Shown here: positions 42,623 to 58,531 of the stretch, one piece after another
How the letters are laid out: every line of letters starts with the position of its first letter
Position numbering within the stretch: position 1 is the first letter of the stretch
NCBI RefSeq assembly: GCF_000161795.2
Contig: NZ_CP006882.1
Location: 682,001 to 746,000 of the forward strand
From: Synechococcus sp. WH 8109
Lineage (GTDB): Bacteria; Cyanobacteriota; Cyanobacteriia; PCC-6307; Cyanobiaceae
Direction: 5' to 3'
Length of the DNA stretch: 64,000 bases
Translations under genes and position numbers: made by a program
The notes under the pieces: model-generated
Told to the model about the DNA's origin: nothing
The model's input: the letters and a program-made list of their open reading frames with translations, nothing else
The model's database searches: none

Positions 42623-43213
42623 TCAGGGGTTCAGCGGTTGCTCTTGCCAGAGCGTGTCCGCGTTCCAACGCGTGCGTTGATGGGGATGGGGGCCAAGGTT
42701 GAGTCGCTCAACGCTGATCACCTGCAGCCTCAGCACCACGAAATGCTCAGGTAGCGGTGCAGTTTCAGCCAGTTGATCGGGGAACGCCGCCGTGGAGTCC
42801 AGCGGATATGCCGGGGTAGGCCAGCCCCAGACGGCCCGTCCTGTGTTGGAGAGCTTTTGCCAGCGCTGTTGGCAGAGCTCAGGTTGTTCAGTGGCTGTGA
42901 TCAACTTCACTTTTCCCCGTAGGCGGTACTGCTGGCGGGCTTTGGGGAACAACCAGCACAGTTCAGTTGCTCCATCGTTGGCGAGTTCCGTCACTTTCTC
43001 GCTGCGCTGATCGCTGAATAGTTCGAGCTGGTCTGCACCGGCCCAGCCGCGGAACACCAGGGTTCGCACCCGGGGTGCGCCATCGCGTCCTGTTGTGGCC
43101 AATTGCACCCAGCGGGCGGCAACGGAGCGTCCCTCCCGCTGCATGGCTGCGCGCAGCAGAGGTCTCCAGGGGGGGATGGCCTCAGTGATGGCACCAGTGA
43201 TTCCCTCAGTCAT
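42623..43213 (-). CDS. PNPOx-like FMN flavoprotein
   Basis: A 196-residue protein of the pyridoxamine-5'-phosphate-oxidase-like split barrel, of the cyanobacterial alr4036/Npun_F5749 type. FMN-binding regions include RWVQLATTGRDGAPRVRTLVFRGW and LFSDQRSEKVTELANDGATELCWLF. The C-terminus ends in LGPHPHQRTRW. It is not a PdxH ortholog, so its substrate is unknown. The stop/start overlap with the histone-deacetylase gene (four bases) suggests cotranscription. Confidence 0.85.
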   Translation of the reverse strand: MTEGITGAITEAIPPWRPLLRAAMQREGRSVAARWVQLATTGRDGAPRVRTLVFRGWAGADQLELFSDQRSEKVTELANDGATELCWLFPKARQQYRLRGKVKLITATEQPELCQQRWQKLSNTGRAVWGWPTPAYPLDSTAAFPDQLAETAPLPEHFVVLRLQVISVERLNLGPHPHQRTRWNADTLWQEQPLNP

Positions 43214-44127
43214 GGAAGGTCGAACAAGCGAGCCTGCTCGGCAGCAGCACGCACCACGATGGCGTGGCGCTGCACCAGGGGGGCGAGGGCGTCGTAGCCG
43301 CCGCCAATCACCGTTGCGGTTGGAATCCTGCGGCGCAGGCAGGCATCGAGTACGAGTCGATCGCGCATGTTTAATCCCGCATCGCTGAGGTCGAGCCGGC
43401 CGAGCCGATCATCGCGATGGGGGTCGACGCCCGCGTTGTAGAGCACCAAGTCCGGCGCGATGGTGTCCAAGGCATCGGGCAACCGGTCGGCAATGGCAGC
43501 GAGATAGTCGTCGTCGTTGGTGCCGTCGGCGAGGGGGATATCGATATCCCCGTCCACTTTGCGCAAGGGGAAATTGCTGGCGGCGTGCACCGAAAGGGTG
43601 GTCACCCTGGGGTCGTGTTGAAAGCAGGCTGCCGAACCATCCCCTTGGTGCACATCGAGATCCACGATCAGAATCCGCCTCACCTCTCCTGTTCCCAGCA
43701 ACACCCGTGCGGCGACAGCGCAGTCGTTGAAGATGCAGAAACCACTCCCGAAGCCTGGGTGGGCGTGGTGGGTGCCGCCCGCCAGATGTGAGGCCAAGCC
43801 CCGCTTGAGAGCCAGTCGTGCCGTCAACAGGGTGCCGCCCACGGCAAGCCAGGTGCGCTGCACCAAAGGCCGTGTGGCCGGAAGCCCGATGCGACGTTGC
43901 TCCGGTCGGGTCAGGCGATCACGGCTGAAGGCTTCGTGATATCTGCGGGGATGAACGCTCTCCAGATCTCTGCGGGCGATGCTCAGGGGCCGATGCACCT
44001 CGTCGGCCTGGACGACCCCCTGCTCTAGCAGGAGTTGATGCAGCAGCCGGAACTTCGCCATCGGAAAGCGATGGGTGCTCGGCAGCGGCGCGGAGTAGTG
44101 CGGGTGGTAAACGACCGGAAGCGGCAA
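43210..44127 (-). CDS. Histone deacetylase-family amidohydrolase
   Basis: A 305-residue zinc hydrolase of the HDAC/acetoin-utilisation fold. The charge-relay and metal motifs are intact: GGTHHAHPGFGSGFCIFND, ILIVDLDVHQGDGSAACF and NAGVDPHRDDRLGRLDLSDAG. Bacterial members deacetylate acetylated polyamines or metabolites. Its first 23 codons lie inside the 296-bp direct repeat, so a decapitated copy (MPLPVVYHPHYSAPLPSTHRFPM) exists at 49990-50058. Start at ATG 44127. Confidence 0.9.
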   Translation of the reverse strand: MPLPVVYHPHYSAPLPSTHRFPMAKFRLLHQLLLEQGVVQADEVHRPLSIARRDLESVHPRRYHEAFSRDRLTRPEQRRIGLPATRPLVQRTWLAVGGTLLTARLALKRGLASHLAGGTHHAHPGFGSGFCIFNDCAVAARVLLGTGEVRRILIVDLDVHQGDGSAACFQHDPRVTTLSVHAASNFPLRKVDGDIDIPLADGTNDDDYLAAIADRLPDALDTIAPDLVLYNAGVDPHRDDRLGRLDLSDAGLNMRDRLVLDACLRRRIPTATVIGGGYDALAPLVQRHAIVVRAAAEQARLFDLP

Positions 44128-44353
44128 AGGGTTGTCTCAACCGGGATTGCTCAGCCCCATTCAAGGGTCAGGCAGGCTGCTGGTGCAGCAACCAGTCGTT
44201 GAAGCCACTGGTGTTCAGTTCGCTGATGCAGCTCTGCAGTTTGCGCAGATGGCTCTGCTTGATCTGGGTGAGTCGCTGTCCTTCCTGGGTTGTTGGCCCG
44301 ACGCGGATTCGCTGCTGATTGAGCAGGTCCATCTCGCGGTCGAGATGTTCCAT
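44058..44353. repeat. 296-bp direct repeat, left copy
   Basis: Identical to 49989-50284 at every base I compared, offset 5931. It contains the 5' part of the deacetylase gene and the 3' two-thirds of a small minus-strand gene. Flanks diverge sharply on both sides, so the boundaries are exact. Confidence 0.97.
44168..44353 (-). pseudogene. Truncated copy of the 83-aa coiled-coil gene
   Basis: Reads MEHLDREMDLLNQQ... and stops at 44168. It is the C-terminal 61 residues of the intact gene at 50099-50350 and lacks its first 22 codons; the repeat boundary falls exactly before the internal Met. It could be translated from that Met, but no new ribosome binding site is evident, so I class it as a remnant. 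Confidence 0.7.
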
Positions 44354-44394
44354 ATCCCAAGAATTCCTGCTTTGATTTATCCGTCTTTGTCCTT

Positions 44395-44538
44395 TTACTC
44401 AGGCTGAGATGCAGCGATGGAGCAATGTGAAACAGCCATCTGCCTCAGAATTGCTGCTATTGCACTCTGATTATTAAATGCGCGATAGACAGAAAGCTGT
44501 TTGTTCAGCTGTTGACATTCGTTCTTTTGGTCGTCCAT
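44395..44538 (-). CDS. Microprotein, 47 aa
   Basis: Reads MDDQKNECQQLNKQLSVYRAFNNQ..., a short helical protein with two Cys. Too short for the default gene length, but it has an ATG start and regular amphipathic periodicity. First gene inside the bracketed insertion. Confidence 0.4.
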   Translation of the reverse strand: MDDQKNECQQLNKQLSVYRAFNNQSAIAAILRQMAVSHCSIAASQPE

Positions 44539-44746
44539 GAATAATTCAACTTCTTGCTGCGGACAGCATGCTTTTGACTGCCATGAAGACTATGTACCAA
44601 GTATCACCAAATCTCGGCATTGAGTATTTACTACTGCAAATACCTAGTAGTGCGTATAAATGCTCTTAGTGATTTTTGTGTATTTAATATAACAAAGGCT
44701 CGCGAAACATCCATTAGCATGTAGAAGTTCAAGAAAAAAGTTAGAA

Positions 44747-44830
44747 ATGCTATTTACTATACCTGCAATTTCAATCGGAGCTGTTTTCTGTATATTGCTG
44801 CACTTTTTGCTGGGCGGCGTATTTGCTTAA
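44747..44830 (+). CDS. Membrane microprotein, 27 aa
   Basis: Reads MLFTIPAISIGAVFCILLHF and continues with seven more residues, a single hydrophobic helix with no charged residue. It lies in an AT-rich stretch. Weak evidence; could be chance. Confidence 0.3.
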   Translation: MLFTIPAISIGAVFCILLHFLLGGVFA

Positions 44831-44905
44831 GCGCTAATCTTTCCCAACTCGGCTAAACGGCTAAAATAAGCAGCAGAAATCCTGGTGATGCTTGCCTGGG
44901 TGATT

Positions 44906-45175
44906 TTACTTTTTGCTCATAAAGTCATCATCGGCTTCGGTCATGGCTACTTCGTCATCATGGAAAGAGCATCCATATAAGAGATTCTCTATTCGAGAGA
45001 CGTCCATGTCGCGATCTGCAACCTCTTGCCATAGATAAATTTCCTGGAATCTATTTCCAAGATAGAATTGCGCTTCGGAAATATCCCTCGTAATTTTAAA
45101 ATAAGCAGATTGCTCCTTCGCGCTCGGCGAAATGTAGGTCAGGATTTTTCTTCCTACTGACTGCAGCGTCGCCAT
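44906..45175 (-). CDS. Small hypothetical protein, 89 aa
   Basis: An 89-residue soluble protein, starting MATLQSVGRKILTYISPS with an acidic C-terminus (DDEVAMTEADDDFMSKK). It reads well on one frame with no shadowing partner. No family recognised. It is in the AT-richer half of the bracketed island. Confidence 0.55.
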   Translation of the reverse strand: MATLQSVGRKILTYISPSAKEQSAYFKITRDISEAQFYLGNRFQEIYLWQEVADRDMDVSRIENLLYGCSFHDDEVAMTEADDDFMSKK

Positions 45176-45277
45176 AGATCACTTCGACATCTGCGCATAT
45201 TTTAGTAGTAACCGATACAAAATCAATAGGTTTTTATGCCGTTCAGCAGGGCTCTGTTGCCTAGCCGCACAAGCCTT

Positions 45278-45481
45278 TCAGTCTGTCCGGGCTATGCGGA
45301 AGCCTGTTGAGTAGGGAAAGCTGTATCCATGCTCCATTTCCTCAAGCTGCTCTTCAGCCAAGTAGAGGCTGCATGCGACGAAACACGATTGCTCGCTATC
45401 GCAAACCAAAAACTTGCCGCTTTCGACTCTTTGTATGGATGAGCCACGTGGAGTTTGAGTAATCAGCTCTACTGATGCCAC
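45278..45481 (-). CDS. Small hypothetical protein, 67 aa
   Basis: A 67-residue protein beginning at GTG 45481 (reads VASVELITQTPRG) with Cys-containing strand region GKFLVCDSEQSCFVACSLYLAEEQL. Beta-like N-terminal half. No family recognised. Confidence 0.5.
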   Translation of the reverse strand: MASVELITQTPRGSSIQRVESGKFLVCDSEQSCFVACSLYLAEEQLEEMEHGYSFPYSTGFRIARTD

Positions 45482-45685
45482 TTTGTTTTTGAGAACACTT
45501 CTTGGTTATGGCCTCGGTCAAGGGAGTCATGGTGTAACGAAGCTCACAGTTTGCTGATTTCCCCGCGTAAACGTCCAGCCGCTTGCATTCTCATCGCATA
45601 TGAGAGCTTGAGGGGGATCGAGATTGAGTGACATGGGCCTTTGAGGAACATATCGACCACTTTCGATAAGAGGAAACCCGAAGTA

Positions 45686-45898
45686 ATGGCGAAAAGGCAT
45701 CAAATATCACTTGACCATTGTCGCTGTCTGGTTACACCAAGGATGTTGGTAGGAGATCTGATGGAGATTCATCTTCACCACGCTCAATCACTCGGTGAAC
45801 TCATCCTTGATGGTCGACACAAGCCTTTTCGTGCACTGGCTTGTCCGTTAAAGCCAGCAGTGCTGAAACACGAGCGGCAAGCGACAAGTCGGGAGTAG
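45686..45898 (+). CDS. Small hypothetical protein, 70 aa
   Basis: From ATG 45686 reads MAKRHQISLDHCRCLVTPR and is His/Cys-rich. A longer frame from 45641 exists. The basic composition and scattered His are not diagnostic. Only moderate confidence that it is coding. Confidence 0.35.
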   Translation: MAKRHQISLDHCRCLVTPRMLVGDLMEIHLHHAQSLGELILDGRHKPFRALACPLKPAVLKHERQATSRE

Positions 45899-45920
45899 GC
45901 CACACCACAATCCCTATTGA

Positions 45921-46112
45921 CTAGTCCTTGACCAGTTCAGATCCCTCAACGCAGTAGACCACTTCATCTGGAAAGAGTTCATGGACTACACGGTATGTAT
46001 CCAAGGTTGCAATTGCCTTGCGACGAGCGCCTATCCAAGCCTTGAGCTCATTTTTATAGTTCAGTTCCCTGATCCATTGACGGCCAACCCCTCGGCGTTC
46101 GACGAAATACAT
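45921..46112 (-). CDS. Small hypothetical protein, 63 aa
   Basis: Reads MYFVERRGVGRQWIREL and ends ...VEGSELVKD; 63 residues, mixed strands and helix, basic N-terminus. No family recognised. The single clean frame and good codon use support a real gene. Confidence 0.5.
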   Translation of the reverse strand: MYFVERRGVGRQWIRELNYKNELKAWIGARRKAIATLDTYRVVHELFPDEVVYCVEGSELVKD

Positions 46113-46404
46113 GCCGAGCTTGATTCTTGCTTTGAAGCCAAAAAGTAGATACGTATAGCGGTTGTGTATCTTCTTTTGATCATTTCAGGACATGCATCGA
46201 GGAATGGGTAGCCAGTAATGCGTCGCCAGCTTCCTCGACAGAGTTACGACGAAGGTGCCCTTGGTGATTTGCATCGGCCAGGGCAGCGGAGTCACCTACG
46301 TGCAGATGGTGGCTTCGTTCGATCAAAAGGAGGTTCCTGTCTTTTCCAAGTCGAGAATTTGTGAGGAACGCTGCTAGACAAGTCGTATCTGCTGTCTATG
46401 GCTG

Positions 46405-46584
46405 ATGAACTGGTTTCGACATGGCCTTGCTCCGTGGAAACCGGTCCACACTCTTCTCTTCGCAGATAAAAAGGTCTTTTTCTGGATCAAGGACAAGCTC
46501 GGTCTCTCTGACTACCAGATGGCTGCGTTGCTCTGGCTTAAAGGTCTGGTAACAGGTGTGCTGTTGGGGGTCTGGTTGTTCTGA
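46405..46584 (+). CDS. Membrane microprotein, 59 aa
   Basis: Reads MNWFRHGLAPWKPVHTLLFA... and ends with a hydrophobic helix (LKGLVTGVLLGVWLF). It runs opposite to a longer ORF on the minus strand, which I consider a shadow because this one has a tail-anchored membrane helix and a tidy ATG start. Too short for usual gene callers. Confidence 0.5.
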   Translation: MNWFRHGLAPWKPVHTLLFADKKVFFWIKDKLGLSDYQMAALLWLKGLVTGVLLGVWLF

Positions 46585-46934
46585 TCGGACTTTAGAAATG
46601 AACAGTTCACTAGCTACTGATGCAGTGAACGAATCCCGACCAGGATCACGACAGAAGTGCTCCAAGGGACGGTGCAGCAGCAGAAGCTCTGTTGCTGCAA
46701 GCTCAACACGGCGACGGTCAAGTAGCTCTCAGGACGTACAGCTACGTTCCGCCCCGCCCGCCTGAGCCAGTGACTCGTCGGCGGATGCTGCGGCACAACG
46801 CCATTGAGGTTTGGCAGACGATGCAGAAGACGGGGTGGAGGCTCTGCCCCCCGCCTGTGCGCTGATCAGATGAGGTCGTAGCCCATTAATTTTCAGCTCC
46901 ATCAGCGAATCAAGAATTCAGTCAGTTTGCCTCT
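46585..46934. other. Unassigned stretch with a C-terminal-like frame
   Basis: A plus-strand frame 46624-46865 without a good start codon ends in GWRLCPPPVR. The closely similar GWRRCPPLVR, also on the plus strand, closes just past the end of the ~355-bp repeat (47284-47316). I see no complete gene here. Confidence 0.35.
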
Positions 46935-47288
46935 GACTACTGCTGTTGCTCCATCTGCTGCTGACTTAGCGATTCAGGTCGTTTTGACTGGTTTGCTGCT
47001 GCTTTTGTGATGGCTGAGAACGGGGCCCTACACCATTTGGGTTTGAGCGGAGCCCCGAGCGATGGTGGCTCCGCCGCACACGCAGCTCTCTCACTTGCGG
47101 TGTGCAATTCAGTCGTAACCGTCCTGATCAAGCCTGAAGTGTGTGAACTGCCACCAAATCGCAGACAGGGTGATCCGGCCAGCCGTCGGACAGATCACCC
47201 GAGCCAAGACCGCCAACTCTCCAAGGCCATCTCGTCTCACTTCTACCCCTAGCCACGGATCATGAATCCCGACTAGATCATTGGCTGG
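46935..47288. repeat. Diverged ~355-bp repeat, copy 1
   Basis: Matches 47533-47891 over its whole length with substitutions and small indels. Shared anchors include GACTACTGCTGTTGCT at the start, a GCGGAGCC...GGCTCCGC hairpin near the middle, AATCGCAG-CAGGGTGATCCG, and ATTGGCTGG at the end. A coding frame on the plus strand in its second half (SVVTVLIKPEVCELPPNRRQGDP) is partly shared, and the minus strand carries a frame ending DQDGYD. Confidence 0.8.
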
Positions 47289-47499
47289 AGACGCTGCCCT
47301 CCGCTTGTGCGATGAAAAATGAGGGAGAAGCGGGTCGAGGGAAACCCGCTGCATGCACTTCCATCTCCCAACGCGTTTGCAGAGCTGCTCGCGTCAGCCG
47401 AACTATGACTCAAGCGAGAATGATTCCCGCTAAGTAGTAATGCCTAGCAATTGATATTGTTGTTCTGGAGGCAGAGCTGCTTCTAATGCAACTGTTTGG

Positions 47500-47527
47500 G
47501 GTGGGCTGAGGGGCCCGCCTCTTTTTA
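47500..47527 (+). terminator. Rho-independent terminator
   Basis: Stem GGTGGGCT / GGCCCGCC (8 bp with two G-T pairs) around GAGG, then TCTTTTTATT. It lies immediately before repeat copy 2; the transcript it ends is not identified. Confidence 0.7.
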
Positions 47528-47532
47528 TTCGC

Positions 47533-47891
47533 GACTACTGCTGTTGCTGTATCTGCTTCTTACTCAGTGACTTAGGCCGTTTTGACTGGCTTTCTGCTGC
47601 CTTCGTGATGGCTGAGCGCCAGCCCCGTAACTATTTCGAGACAAGCGGAGCCACGGTTGCATGGGGTGTGGCTCCGCCGCCTCGTTTCCTTTGCCCGGAG
47701 CCGAAGCTACTCAGTCGTAACCCTCCTGATCACGGCTAAGGCGAGTCACTTACTACCGAATCGCAGGCAGGGTGATCCGCGTGTTCGCTCTGTGCGGTTC
47801 ACCCGAGCCAAGTCCGCCCCACATCTGGCCGACTCGTCTCATCTTCACCATTAGTCAGGGATCATGAATCGCGACAACTTCCATTGGCTGG
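47533..47891. repeat. Diverged ~355-bp repeat, copy 2
   Basis: Counterpart of 46935-47288. The minus-strand frame is interrupted by two adjacent stops shortly before its shared ending (DQEGYD), and the plus-strand frame differs, so this copy looks more degraded for coding. The central hairpin is stronger (10-bp stem GCGGAGCCAC/GTGGCTCCGC). No transposase is encoded between the copies. Confidence 0.8.
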
Positions 47892-48422
47892 GGAGCCCCG
47901 TCCATTTCCCTGTGTGATTTCCCGCCCGTAGAGCTGGGTGAGGCTGTACCGCATTCCTGACGTGATCGACGTTTGTGGCCCTTGCGCGCAGGCTGGTAGG
48001 CGTCTCGTCGGGTGTCAGCGACATAAAGCAGCTAATTTCAAACTGAGATTTCCGGGAACTGAGAAATCCTGGACAAACCGCTGCCAAAATCGAAGCTTGC
48101 CCTCATATTTAGTGTCCAGACAGCCAATACGTCACTGTCTAGGCAGCACCGGGAGAGCGACCTGGTATCTGGCAGAGCCTCCATGGCACGAGCGATTGTC
48201 ATGGAGAGCTTTCTGCGCTCTTCAGGTCTCTGAAAAGAGTTAGTGCATTTGCACCAAGGTCTTGTATGGCGACGAACTTGTTCAAGCGGATACCGCATCG
48301 CTCGGGGAGAGGGTGCTCTCCTCGCGGTTCCGCAGCTCTTCTCACCTATATCGCTAAGCGGCTGTTAGCCCAACCGATAGAAGAAGCTGTCAGAGCCATG
48401 GGCCGCCAAACGTATTGAAAGT
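47892..48422. other. 531-bp stretch without a confident gene
   Basis: A minus-strand frame 48038-48298 (alternative start about 48208: MTIARAMEALPDTRS) could encode a short protein, but codon use is unconvincing. Nothing else is seen. Confidence 0.3.
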
Positions 48423-48566
48423 TCAGCTGTCATTTTCCTTAGATCTCGGATCGTTCTCCCTGTATATCGGCAGGTCGGTGGGCTGAGCCAGGACGTAAAC
48501 GACAGCCGCAGAGATAACTACGGTGACGATGACCAGAGCGGTGATCGCTGTCGAGTAGTCGTTCAA
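48423..48566 (-). CDS. Membrane microprotein with DYSTAI...QP motif, 47 aa
   Basis: Starts at TTG 48566 and reads LNDYSTAITALVIVTVVISA... QPTDLPIYRENDPRS. One transmembrane helix follows the DYSTAI start; a QP pair ends it. It overlaps the upstream gene by four bases (TTGA). The plus-strand gene at 50609 has the same D-Y-[ST]-T-A-I / helix / QP layout, so these are two members of one small family. Confidence 0.6.
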   Translation of the reverse strand: MNDYSTAITALVIVTVVISAAVVYVLAQPTDLPIYRENDPRSKENDS

Positions 48567-48745
48567 GCTTCAATTTCAGCCTTTTTGTCGACCGTCTCTT
48601 TGACTTCTTCAGTGGTTGCTTCAGCTGATTTGGACTTGCTGTAAGAGCAACCGCCAGCGTTAGCGACGTTGGCGAAAGCAGCCATAACCATGCTTGAGAT
48701 GATCACGGTGCCACCGAAGAAGGCAATGTTCGGATGACGGTTCAA
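48563..48745 (-). CDS. Exported or anchored microprotein, 60 aa
   Basis: Reads from TTG 48745 (LNRHPNIAFFGGTVI): one hydrophobic segment ending AFANVANAGG, then a charged tail (EATTEEVKETVDKKAEIEA). It could be an anchored or exported protein. Its stop overlaps the start of the next gene by four bases, so translation is likely coupled. Confidence 0.6.
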   Translation of the reverse strand: MNRHPNIAFFGGTVIISSMVMAAFANVANAGGCSYSKSKSAEATTEEVKETVDKKAEIEA

Positions 48746-48828
48746 GAGAGATAGACCTAATAGAAGGCGTCCCTATCGACTCAATTCACCCATTGGGGAC
48801 GATTGGTAGCCGTTGCTTCTTAAGCGAT

Positions 48829-48945
48829 TCAGTCTTCTGAACTGCGATCACGCCGATACCGATCAGGGCTGAAAAACCAAATAATCAGCCGGGTGCTGAA
48901 CCAGGCGAGCAAGACGCCCAGAGCTATCGAGACAAGCGCCTCCAC
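48829..48945 (-). CDS. Membrane microprotein, 38 aa
   Basis: From GTG 48945 reads VEALVSIALGVLLAWFSTRL followed by IIWFFSPDRYRRDRSSED. A single hydrophobic helix with a positively charged C-terminus suggests an inner-membrane microprotein. It lies just upstream of the other two minus-strand genes (48745 and 48566). Confidence 0.4.
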   Translation of the reverse strand: MEALVSIALGVLLAWFSTRLIIWFFSPDRYRRDRSSED

Positions 48946-49029
48946 AACAAGTCTTCAGAGAACATCAGCCGGAGCTGGATGTCCTAAATATGGCGTGCTG
49001 ATCAAGGGCTAAAGAGCGACCGTTAACGG

Positions 49030-49176
49030 TCAGTCGCGAACTGGTTCGTGCTTGTCGTTGGGTGCCTCCGCCTGAGGCTGAGGTTTGGCTGCTGACTTTG
49101 AAGCCAGAGAAGCCTCTAGACGCTGTAGCTGCGCTTCACGCAGAGCGACGTAGATCCTGAGGGTGTGGTCAGTCAT
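49030..49176 (-). CDS. Microprotein, 48 aa
   Basis: Reads MTDHTLRIYVALREAQLQRL then a low-complexity, Ala/Lys/Pro/Gln-rich tail. Amphipathic N-terminal helix. ATG start. No family recognised. Confidence 0.45.
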   Translation of the reverse strand: MTDHTLRIYVALREAQLQRLEASLASKSAAKPQPQAEAPNDKHEPVRD

Positions 49177-49343
49177 CGATTGGCGTTTCCAACAGCGAGA
49201 GGCTCAGGGCCTAGTGCTGTCGAAAGGGGGCCTACAGATCAGAAGACTGGCGAACCATAAGGAGCCACAGGCGGCAGACCACCGAGCAGAGATATCTATT
49301 GTCAGCGACCTCGGATCTTTGGCCGCGTCGGCGGACTCACAGG

Positions 49344-49371
49344 TGAAAAGAAACCCCTGCCTTGGCAGGGG
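49344..49371 (-). terminator. Rho-independent terminator
   Basis: Stem CCCCTGCC / GGCAGGGG with a two-base loop, then TTTCTTTTC on the minus strand. It lies just past the stop of the 57-aa Cys-containing gene (49396-49569). Confidence 0.8.
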
Positions 49372-49395
49372 AGCGCGCATGAGGGCCTTGGGCGC

Positions 49396-49569
49396 CTAGC
49401 TGTCGTTTTTGTAAAGCTTGCAAGCCTCGCTCTCAGCCAATGTTGGATCGGTAGAGCAAAGGTGGCGCATCAAGCCTTCTTGATCGTGAGGTGAAAGGCT
49501 GCCATCGCCACCCCACTTCATGCAGGTGTTCAGGGTGCAATCGAGAGGTTTTCTTGGTCCGACAGACAT
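49396..49569 (-). CDS. Cysteine-containing microprotein, 57 aa
   Basis: Reads MSVGPRKPLDCTLNTCMKWG and continues with a helix-rich segment, ending ACKLYKNDS. Four Cys (DCTLNTC, HLC, ACK) could form two disulfides or a metal site. ATG start and its own terminator support a real gene. Confidence 0.55.
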   Translation of the reverse strand: MSVGPRKPLDCTLNTCMKWGGDGSLSPHDQEGLMRHLCSTDPTLAESEACKLYKNDS

Positions 49570-49642
49570 GTGACCCTCCGTATTGGGTCAACTGACATTG
49601 GCGTTGTTTTTCCATTGCGGGATCAAAAAAACACAAATCTTG

Positions 49643-49855
49643 TTAGGGACTCAACACAATTGGCGAGGCTTTCTTCCTTTCGGTCCGCTTGATCCCGCAC
49701 CCCACTACAGGTGCCCAACCCATCTCTTCCTGACGGCTCAGTGCCAAGAGCTTGCAAGCTTCCAGTTCAATGCGGCATTGCGCTCCGGAAGAGCTGCAAT
49801 TGCCAGCAGAAATTTCTGAGACCTTTCGTACAGGCATGAACCTGAAAGTCCCCAT
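49643..49855 (-). CDS. Small hypothetical protein, 70 aa
   Basis: Reads MGTFRFMPVRKVSEISAGNC. Its C-terminal block (LEACKLLALSRQEEMGWAP) is similar to the end of a minus-strand frame at 58236-58343 (KKRCNLWAPTCQKEVGWAP). The two frames share the Cys-x-hydrophobic...QxExGWAP pattern, suggesting a small paralog family. Confidence 0.5.
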   Translation of the reverse strand: MGTFRFMPVRKVSEISAGNCSSSGAQCRIELEACKLLALSRQEEMGWAPVVGCGIKRTERKKASPIVLSP

Positions 49856-49988
49856 GCCACCTCATGTGGAGCCCCTCTCCCCTTGTTCAAGGTGTGAGCT
49901 GTCCGAGTGTGTTGTTGTTTGCGTTGTGATTTCTCGAAGGACACTTCTCTAAGATCGACTGCAATGACGGGATTTATAACTTCTAGAA

Positions 49989-50284
49989 CCATCGGAAAGC
50001 GATGGGTGCTCGGCAGCGGCGCGGAGTAGTGCGGGTGGTAAACGACCGGAAGCGGCAAAGGGTTGTCTCAACCGGGATTGCTCAGCCCCATTCAAGGGTC
50101 AGGCAGGCTGCTGGTGCAGCAACCAGTCGTTGAAGCCACTGGTGTTCAGTTCGCTGATGCAGCTCTGCAGTTTGCGCAGATGGCTCTGCTTGATCTGGGT
50201 GAGTCGCTGTCCTTCCTGGGTTGTTGGCCCGACGCGGATTCGCTGCTGATTGAGCAGGTCCATCTCGCGGTCGAGATGTTCCAT
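49989..50284. repeat. 296-bp direct repeat, right copy
   Basis: Identical copy of 44058-44353. Right of it the small coiled-coil gene continues intact; left of it the deacetylase frame is lost. Together the copies bracket 5635 bp (44354-49988). Confidence 0.97.
49990..50058 (-). pseudogene. Deacetylase 5' fragment in the right repeat
   Basis: The first 23 codons of the histone-deacetylase gene (MPLPVVYHPHYSAPLPSTHR...) lie here, then the frame runs into island sequence. An ORF can be extended as far as 49738, producing a chimera with no resemblance to the enzyme. This is a by-product of the duplication. Confidence 0.8.
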
Positions 50285-50350
50285 CAGGTTGAGCAGTGCA
50301 TAGCCCTGCTTTATCTCCTGCGCGCTGAGCTGCTTAGAGAAGTGACCCAT
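50099..50350 (-). CDS. Small coiled-coil protein, 83 aa
   Basis: Intact gene (MGHFSKQLSAQEIKQGYAL then a heptad-like DREMDLLNQQ... segment). Its C-terminal 61 codons are duplicated at 44168-44353. It is the original neighbour of the deacetylase gene, now about 6 kb away. No functional match. Confidence 0.65.
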   Translation of the reverse strand: MGHFSKQLSAQEIKQGYALLNLMEHLDREMDLLNQQRIRVGPTTQEGQRLTQIKQSHLRKLQSCISELNTSGFNDWLLHQQPA

Positions 50351-50734: not shown

Positions 50735-50975
50735 GCCAACACGACGCGGTTACCATTCGCTGCTGGCAATTGACGGGTGAAACACCTCGCGAGGACATGG
50801 TTCCCGGTATTGACGAACGTGATGTTCGTGAACGGATCAATGTGCTTTTGTCCGACAATTTCGCTGCCTGTCTGGCCATCGTGTTCCCGAGGCGTTGATC
50901 GGCCCCGACTCCCCCGAAGGCATTGCTGTGTCCCATCGGGTTGCCGTCATGCACTATCTGCTCGACATCGGGTAG
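50731..50975 (+). pseudogene. Frameshifted small protein
   Basis: From GTG 50731 the frame reads SQHDAVTIRCWQLTGETPRE and stops at 50898. A shift of one base near 50870-50890 rejoins a clear continuation, VPEALIGPDSPEGIAVSHR... ending at TAG 50975. The two parts make one plausible 81-residue protein, so a single-base deletion is likely. It starts in overlap with the DYTTAI microprotein. Confidence 0.55.
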
Positions 50976-57181: not shown

Positions 57182-57365
57182 CGCCGATGTCCACGCGACC
57201 ATCTCCGATCACTGGTCGTCGGTCGCACGTTTGGCATCCGCCGCATCACCACTGATCGATACGGTCGCACCGTTGCCGAGTTGTTCGTCGATGGCTCGAA
57301 CGTCCAGCAGCAGCTGGTCTCCACCGGCCATGCCGACATTTACCGGAAGTACGCACATCATGCGC
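57182..57365 (+). pseudogene. Staphylococcal nuclease-like (SNase) remnant
   Basis: One frame carries a typical SNase core stretch: RDHLRSLVVGRTF, then TTDRYGRTVAELFVDG and VQQQLVSTGHADIYRKYAHH. The normal N-terminal strands (IDGDTV..., IDAPE) are missing and a stop lies just before (about 57179). The next gene begins where the nuclease C-terminus would be. It is a truncated relic rather than a working nuclease. Confidence 0.65.
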
Positions 57366-57377
57366 CTGGAGTCGCTG

Positions 57378-57602
57378 ATGGATCAGTCATCTCTCATCGC
57401 AGCTTTGAACCGTGCTGCACGCGATGGCAACGCTGCAGAAACTCGTCGCCTTCAGGCCCTATGCGGCCCCGTTCCCGCTCAGGCGGCATACAAGTCCGCC
57501 CAACAAGAAATTGATGAGCTGCTGGGAGAAGAGTTATCCCTCGAAGCCCTACGGGCTCAGTTCCCCTGCTGCAGCGATAAGCCCTGGAGGATTGGCAGCT
57601 GA
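57378..57602 (+). CDS. Small hypothetical protein, 74 aa
   Basis: From ATG 57378 reads MDQSSLIAALNRAARDGNAA then ETRRLQALCGPVPAQ and a helical LLGEELSLEALRAQFP. Helical, with three Cys. The frame is open upstream (57360), but that part belongs to the SNase relic. Confidence 0.5.
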   Translation: MDQSSLIAALNRAARDGNAAETRRLQALCGPVPAQAAYKSAQQEIDELLGEELSLEALRAQFPCCSDKPWRIGS

Positions 57603-57694
57603 TCCACCGCGCCTAGAAATTAAGAAATAAGTTGAATAGGTTGCTATTAGTAGAGGCGTCTCTAGAGATAGAAATTAATTCAAGAGCTGCCTAC

Positions 57695-58006
57695 ATGTCT
57701 TCTCTATCAATTGTTATTAACCGTCTCTGCTTCAGATCTCTTTGGAAGTTGAACTGCATTGTCGTCTCGGTTGGCATGATGCTTATAGGCTTTGTTGTGG
57801 GGAGTTACGCATGGATCTCAGGTGCTGATATCGTCTCTATCAATGATCAATATGTGCATGGATTCACTGCTTTTATAACTGCGATTGGTCTTGCATTCTT
57901 TCTCAGTTTTTTCTTTGGAACGTTTTGGACAATTGCTCAATGGATTGGATTTGTCATTTATTCGCGCTTTAGACCCATTCGATTGCGTTACTATGAGGTA
58001 AATTAA
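57695..58006 (+). CDS. Two-helix membrane protein, 103 aa
   Basis: Starts at ATG 57695 (MSSLSIVINRLCFRSLWKLN). Two strong hydrophobic segments (VSVGMMLIGFVVGSYAWI and AFITAIGLAFFLSFFFGTFW), low GC. Upstream frame to 57632 is not protein-like. Membrane function unknown. Confidence 0.65.
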   Translation: MSSLSIVINRLCFRSLWKLNCIVVSVGMMLIGFVVGSYAWISGADIVSINDQYVHGFTAFITAIGLAFFLSFFFGTFWTIAQWIGFVIYSRFRPIRLRYYEVN

Positions 58007-58112
58007 TCTCAGAGAGGTATATAGAGTCTCATGAAGATTCTATTCGCATAGCGTAAGAGGAGTTAACTGTGAATAACCCAACCAAAGCTTTTAGACGAAT
58101 AGGGTTAAGGCT

Positions 58113-58220
58113 ATGCAAAAACCTTCCGAAAAAAGCAGGGGTGCAGCTCTTCTCGACGACCTCAAGTTCACAAAGTCTTGCGACCAGGCTGTGATTTGGC
58201 CACTTGGGGTTGATGACTAG
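58113..58220 (+). CDS. Possible microprotein, 35 aa
   Basis: Reads MQKPSEKSRGAALLDDLKFT, soluble. Weak: alternative frames exist in the same stretch. Confidence 0.25.
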   Translation: MQKPSEKSRGAALLDDLKFTKSCDQAVIWPLGVDD

Positions 58221-58235
58221 GTGCAACTCGCAGGC

Positions 58236-58343
58236 TCAACCCGCTTCAGGAGCCCAACCCACTTCCTTCTGACAGGTGGGTGCCCAGAGATTGCAGCGCT
58301 TCTTGAGGTGCTGAACCTGTTGCTTTCTTTGGGGGTCCACCAC
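58236..58343 (-). CDS. Possible small protein, 35 aa (paralog of 49643 gene end)
   Basis: From GTG 58343 reads VVDPQRKQQVQHLKKRCNLW then CQKEVGWAPEAG. Similar in pattern to the C-terminus of the gene at 49643-49855. The start is uncertain and no ribosome binding site stands out. Confidence 0.35.
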   Translation of the reverse strand: MVDPQRKQQVQHLKKRCNLWAPTCQKEVGWAPEAG

Positions 58344-58393
58344 TCGTCGCCTTGATTGGGACTTTGCGCAGGCGGTGTCGTGCCGAAGGCATG

Positions 58394-58422
58394 AAAAAAC
58401 CCGATGCCGCTTGGCACCGGGT
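58394..58422 (-). terminator. Terminator downstream of tRNA-Pro
   Basis: Stem ACCCGGTGCC / GGCATCGGGT with one G-T pair, loop AAGC, then six T on the minus strand. It lies 36 bp past the tRNA-Pro 3' end. Confidence 0.8.
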
Positions 58423-58457
58423 TGGCATGAGCGGTTTGGGAATCGCTCAGATTGCAG

Positions 58458-58531
58458 TCGGGGAGACAGGATTCGAACCTGCGGCATCTTGCTCCCAAAG
58501 CAAGCGCGCTACCAAACTGCGCCACTCCCCG
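58458..58531 (-). tRNA. tRNA-Pro (TGG)
   Basis: A 74-base cloverleaf on the minus strand: acceptor CGGGGAG/CTCCCCG, anticodon loop TTTGGGA giving TGG, T-arm CAGG TTCGAAT CCTG. Its 3' end faces the accessory region. Confidence 0.95.

Follow-up and report, generated by a model that had tools for sequence, protein, structure and literature searches.

A 5.6-kb insertion between identical 296-bp repeats at a protein-gene integration hotspot in Synechococcus sp. WH 8109

The DNA considered here (the window) is a stretch of 64,000 nucleotides (nt) from the genome of Synechococcus sp. WH 8109, and the subject of this report is a segment of 5,635 bp within it (44354-49988) that lies between two identical direct copies of a 296-bp sequence, next to a histone-deacetylase-family gene and a small gene of 83 amino acids (aa). 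In related genomes, elements with tyrosine-recombinase genes have integrated at a short core sequence in the 3' end of the 83-aa gene, a hotspot that had not been foreseen in a preliminary description of this DNA made from its letters alone. The segment in WH 8109 occupies the same locus inside a far longer bracket of repeats. It may be a genomic island which arrived at the hotspot as a circle carrying a captured piece of the locus and integrated by a single crossover, with later turnover of its cargo and gene conversion between the repeats, an account to which we give about an even chance.

The repeat pair and the empty locus

When the window was compared with itself, 44058-44353 and 49989-50284 (plus strand) proved to be direct copies identical over all 296 nt, with a start-to-start distance of 5,931 bp. 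The sequence was found at only these two places in the whole genome, a single contig of 2,111,515 bp, and the perfect direct repeat that the preliminary description had reported is confirmed. The window contained one further repeat family only, of 76% identity (repeats of at least 60 nt, seed 16). Elsewhere in the genome, 20 sampled stretches of 20 kb each (400 kb in all, roughly evenly spaced, four of them put on spots matching the insert, and every stretch compared with itself only) contained no further direct repeat that reached 80 bp and 99% identity with copies more than 1 kb apart, the sole match at that identity being one of 393 bp (99.7%, L091) with copies 381 bp apart.

Each copy joins 70 nt from the start of the deacetylase gene to 61 codons of the 83-aa gene, with a spacer between them. 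On the left side the deacetylase gene (43210-44127, minus strand, TTG start as listed; PF00850, E 7e-56) is complete, and on the right side the 83-aa gene (50099-50350, minus strand; from the list of open reading frames (ORFs) and the junctions in relatives) is complete too. The left copy duplicates 61 of the 83 codons as a truncated gene (44168-44353, minus strand; ORF list), while the right copy duplicates the 70 nt of the deacetylase gene, whose codons 1-23 are fused to insert sequence in a chimeric ORF of 106 aa without a Pfam match (49738-50058, minus strand). The genes had been read in this way in the preliminary description, with one gene's beginning and most of its neighbour inside the repeat and a complete gene on either outer side, and that reading was right.

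The locus was fetched from 20 relatives, and the eleven close ones were classified together with WH 8109 (G000 in the comparisons below); the DNA of seven others was too diverged for classification, or their spacers were longer. Five of the twelve (G028, G031, G009, G021 and G004) are empty, with the deacetylase gene, a single copy of the 296-bp sequence and a contiguous right flank. A further five (G002, G029, G019, G013 and G008) have an insertion at the short core, and two, WH 8109 and G033, have the bracketed arrangement. The more distant G017 and G026 appear contiguous at the locus too. Since the locus is empty and single-copy in five close relatives, 44354-49988 is an insertion, and the alignment of related genomes thus supports the earlier proposal that it had come between two ancestrally adjacent genes.

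A hotspot at the 3' end of the 83-aa gene

The core, CAGGCTGCTGGTGCAGCAAC, is 20 bp long and flanks the insertions in the five relatives just named. It occurs without a mismatch in both 296-bp copies of the window (44173-44192 in the left and 50104-50123 in the right, plus strand), in the latter within the last codons of the 83-aa gene; 0.03 chance matches would be expected at up to 3 mismatches, and no third copy was found in the insert at up to 4 mismatches. In the genomes with core-type insertions the left arm extends to window 44182-44197 and the right arm restarts at 44172-44177. The resulting repeats measure 20 bp in G002, 21 bp in G019, 21 bp with one mismatch in G029, 17 bp in G008 and 10 bp in G013, and the insertions 12,728, 7,910, 3,943, 17,083 and 4,327 bp respectively. 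At these junctions the final codon or codons and the stop of the 83-aa gene are supplied by the element, and the 83-aa reading frame stays complete. A tyrosine-recombinase gene, broken in one case, lies about 120-130 bp inside the right end of four of the five insertions; none was found in the 3.9-kb insertion of G029. The integrase of G019 has 397 aa; the identities are 99% for that of G002, 58-60% for that of G008 and 63-65% for that of G013, which has five stops. The Pfam integrase model detects the genes of G019, G002 and G013, and that of G008, which falls below the cut-off, matches a PHROGs integrase family. Since the core flanks insertions in five relatives, four of them with a related integrase gene, this spot is an integration hotspot within a protein-coding gene.

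The 17-kb element of G008 (L035:1558-18480) carries, besides its integrase, genes for a terminase large subunit, a tape-measure protein and a Prim-Pol/AAA (primase-like) protein, and is taken to be a prophage remnant or satellite-like element in that relative.

The deacetylase is present in 52 of 59 genomes, that of the window included, and the 83-aa gene turned up in a single genus (19 of 300 genomes drawn from the family, 1 of 59 genera). A scan of named genomes for the 83-aa gene gave four loci, in Synechococcus or cyanobacterial assemblies (CAJXPL010000007.1, NZ_VTKZ01000001.1, QCSL01000042.1 and NHIA01000028.1). As to its function, the protein has no match in Pfam, NCBIfam or PDB. A peptide-pattern scan of viral contigs revealed no relative of the 83-aa protein or of the relatives' integrase, and the single exact match to the core among those contigs (L081) falls inside an unconnected phage gene and is taken as chance. 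Among the titles and abstract openings listed in searches of the open literature, none names this locus.

How the bracket may have formed

The arrangement in WH 8109 is of another kind. Its repeats extend 115 bp on one side of the core and 161 bp on the other, and the insert does not end at the core on either side. The insert yielded neither an integrase nor a transposase, in agreement with the preliminary description: Pfam (E up to 1) gave no match for ten ORFs, nine from the insert together with the 83-aa protein, none of the genome's four PF00589 matches lies within it, and tblastn of the relatives' integrase against the window gave no match at E up to 10. The recombinase gene expected of a tyrosine-recombinase element is accordingly missing, and the nearest tRNA gene found (58457-58531), 8 kb away, places the insert apart from tRNA integration. 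Target duplication by a transposon or insertion sequence (IS) was rejected, no transposase having been found and 296 bp being too long for it, as the preliminary description had argued. Origin of the segment from a phage or plasmid was also rejected, as blastn in 'distant' mode found no match to it in 50,697 phage and 72,556 plasmid records.

Two complete direct copies of the locus around the insert, with a single copy at the empty locus, are what a single crossover would be expected to leave, and for that reason a circle appears the likeliest source. A fragment of island DNA would have captured part of the locus, namely the 5' end of the deacetylase gene, the spacer, the core and part of the 83-aa gene; the core would sit in the captured stretch because the cargo came from islands at this hotspot. 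A single illegitimate join, preserved as the present 49988|49989 junction, would have turned the fragment into a circle of about 5.9 kb, which would then have integrated into a chromosome with the empty locus through one crossover in the common DNA, either of RecA type or at the core, leaving the cargo between two full copies of the locus. There is a laboratory precedent in Escherichia coli, where conjugation with a cleaved plasmid having one homologous arm gave, in the passages of PMC3240628 drawn on here, a polymerase chain reaction (PCR) product indicating duplication in 56 of 60 tested Lac- recombinants. According to the same passages, 109-950 bp were duplicated in 14 sequenced recombinants, the duplications were explained mainly by partial degradation, recircularisation and single crossover, and the other four of the 60 resembled homology-facilitated illegitimate recombination (PMC3240628).

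That last process offers an alternative which does without a circle: linear DNA would have recombined through homology at one end, within the region of the deacetylase and 83-aa genes, and been joined illegitimately at the other, further left, duplicating the stretch in between. One illegitimate junction would be enough, and the motif CCAT at both repeat ends, together with the meeting of insert and deacetylase gene at ATGG, is a possible microhomology, although one recognised post hoc. Its known products are, however, generally an insertion with a deletion rather than a duplication, so far as the cited parts of PMC3240628 describe them, and we think it unlikely; the sequence outcome would otherwise equal that of a circle, and the data hardly separate the two.

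A site-specific origin has also to be considered, in which the element carried a host-derived attachment region of 296 bp, its integrase used the core and the integrase gene was later lost. The core is inside both copies, the relatives' elements use it and four of those five have an integrase gene, and e14, which in E. coli brings along a long copy of the 3' end of icd, is described in the consulted portion of PMC6379469 as leaving a duplicated piece of icd of 163 bp. The five core-type insertions, however, have repeats of only 10-21 bp, the long repeat spans both sides of the core and runs into the start of a second gene, which an arm that merely restores the target gene would not need, and by blastn the insert ends are unlike the ends of the core-type elements in relatives. 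An attachment region of this length seems to us rather improbable.

Age of the bracket and identity of its copies

The preliminary description had offered a recent event or continuing gene conversion as the reason for the perfect identity of the repeats, and the first of these loses ground in the comparison with G033. The right junction there is the same as that of the window, and 93-94 bp of the adjoining insert (49895-49988 in the window, about 80% identical) can be aligned with 19 differences in 94 positions, whereas the other 32 genomes of the genus that were searched gave chance-level matches only. A coding signal in this shared piece was unconvincing, with 10 of the 19 differences at third codon positions. 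Beyond the junction the cargo of G033, 1,243 bp in all, has only one piece of 113 bp, inverted, in common with the 5.6-kb insert, and homology of its left copy stops at repeat position 168-177. As judged from the alignments, the bracket looks old, because the exact right junction recurs in G033 with different cargo. The recurrence also bears on the suspicion that the repeats are an artefact of assembly, or two slightly different copies collapsed to one consensus: the identity is perfect, but G033, assembled as a single contig, likewise has two copies and shares the right junction, and both junctions have distinct flanks, which makes an artefact very hard to credit.

The trees on which the history of the locus rests were built from its flanks, not from whole genomes. 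With the right flank (2.5 kb) G033 and G028 are sisters at 100/100 and G000 joins them at 100/100; with the left flank (1.06 kb) the pair has 100/99 and its grouping with G000 only 81/72. If the junction dates back to the split of WH 8109 from G033 or G028 and the two copies had diverged independently since then, four yardsticks would predict 7-17 differences between them, and the Poisson chance of finding zero ranges from 9e-4 to 5e-8. The copies in G033 differ at 10 of 177 positions and those in WH 8109 at 0 of 296, and substitutions at 44140 and 44148 are present in both window copies and in none of the 12 further aligned sequences that have a base at these sites. For these two reasons gene conversion, which would keep the copies identical, is favoured over recency as the simplest reading, and that part of the earlier suggestion has gained. 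Replacement of one copy by exchange would homogenise the pair equally well.

Similar frames around unlike cargo might also be taken to mean that a tandem duplication of the locus preceded the arrival of cargo between its copies. Among 34 genomes of the genus (several incomplete), however, none showed a tandem duplication without cargo, and in the relatives compared no counterpart of 49895-49988 was found on the right side of the locus; we consider this order of events very improbable. A tentative and rather doubtful extension, suggested by the largely unrelated cargo of G000 (5.6 kb) and G033 (1.2 kb) behind the same right junction and by the empty locus of G028, is that the bracket serves as a standing dock, in which homogenised copies of an integrase target would let cells gain, swap and drop cargo by homologous recombination with no integrase.

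Possible loss of the island and points that weigh against the proposed circle

After entry of the proposed circle the cargo would have turned over, and in WH 8109 gene conversion would have held the copies identical; recombination between them, either through homology or site-specifically at the two intact cores, would recreate the empty locus of the relatives exactly, and whatever the origin of the bracket both routes would give the same product. Excision of the island between the repeats, as had been proposed earlier, is plausible but has only indirect support, for G028 is empty without a scar and is the sister of G033. Its state fits one gain followed by one precise loss, or an exchange between strains.

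Several observations weigh against this history of circle, gene conversion and loss. The case for excision is weakened by the nature of G028, which is a metagenome-assembled genome and whose single copy is near the right copy of G033 (4 of 296 positions differ), as if the locus had never been bracketed. The left ends of the two brackets differ (296 bp in G000, about 168-177 bp in G033), and an extra deletion or repair event is needed; no donor was found with the insert joined at 44353. At repeat positions 41, 71 and 122 the left copy of G033 has the base of G000 and its right copy that of G028, and exchange between strains could mimic both descent and homogenisation. The identity of the copies could in principle stem from assembly. 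Finally, the hotspot integrase has no close relative in this genome, where its best match has 26% identity and belongs to a type represented in each of the 12 genomes searched; a site-specific step would therefore depend on an enzyme supplied in trans or on one that has been lost.

Likeness to known systems

The landing site is another case of a recognised type, and the long homogenised bracket is an unusual variant seen in two genomes. The relatives' elements resemble e14 in icd of E. coli, a tyrosine-recombinase element at the 3' end of a protein gene, in inserting at the last codons and resupplying the gene end with its stop, and also in their direct core repeats and, in four of five, the integrase gene beside one end; the window insert differs in having no integrase and in repeats that reach a second gene. 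Marine picocyanobacteria exchange genes borne on islands, and the tycheposon route of Prochlorococcus and its relatives centres on tRNA genes, as presented in the sections of PMC10872708 used here. By the traits given there, the cargo islands with a tyrosine recombinase in the present relatives are alike, as is the related integrase beside a partial tRNA-Pro copy in other relatives; the target in the window differs in being a protein-coding gene rather than a tRNA gene, and the insert in having no recombinase. Single-crossover and homology-facilitated illegitimate recombination have in common with the window direct copies of a short homology around foreign DNA and one illegitimate junction, but the cases described in those parts of PMC3240628 are laboratory crosses, and here the event would be an old, natural one at an integrase target, with identical copies.

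The locus is a protein-coding landing site occupied in five relatives that also exhibits a second way for an island to sit there. Long repeats, apparently gene-converted, would permit loss and exchange of the island without an integrase, and the locus provides a small system in which island excision can be tested by PCR.

Content of the insert and neighbouring features

Mosaic in structure, the insert combines small ORFs with dispersed pieces; its G+C content is 51.3%, against about 58-65% in the left flank and a similar value (mostly 48-58%) in the right. Among the matches listed, segments of about 40-970 bp have counterparts at many sites in relatives and elsewhere in this genome; the longest match (about 970 bp, 88%) is to a stretch of G029 flanked by two integrase matches. 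Two diverged tandem units of about 72-78% identity occupy 46935-47894 (window self-comparison). A dispersed module of about 480 bp (48828-49310) recurs, again among the matches listed, at two other sites here with 85-87% identity and in several relatives at lower to similar identity, up to 89%.

The cargo includes a full-length Cyano-2 RNA (48142-48340, plus strand; RF01702, 177 bits), of which this genome has 6 copies above the cut-off. Five single-contig genomes have 18 copies between them, 6 of which are no more than 5 kb from an integrase match, where 0.64 would be expected at random positions, and 6 was reached in 0 of 5,000 random draws; the closeness may reflect merely the islands common to both. 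The phrase 'Cyano-2 RNA' was not found in the open literature searched.

The tRNA-Pro gene at 58457-58531 looks like a second hotspot. A related integrase adjoins a partial copy of it in G004, G023, G026 and G017, with 77-82% identity in three of these and broken pieces of 56-71% in the fourth. A common origin for the tRNA-Pro target and the core in the 83-aa gene was rejected, the best local matches being 6-8 bp. To the left of the tRNA gene (57195-58458) WH 8109 is about 1.1 kb longer than G033. At a 10-bp overlap nearer the insert (50877-50886) ten aligned relatives have about 145 bp extra, which suggests a small deletion in this genome.

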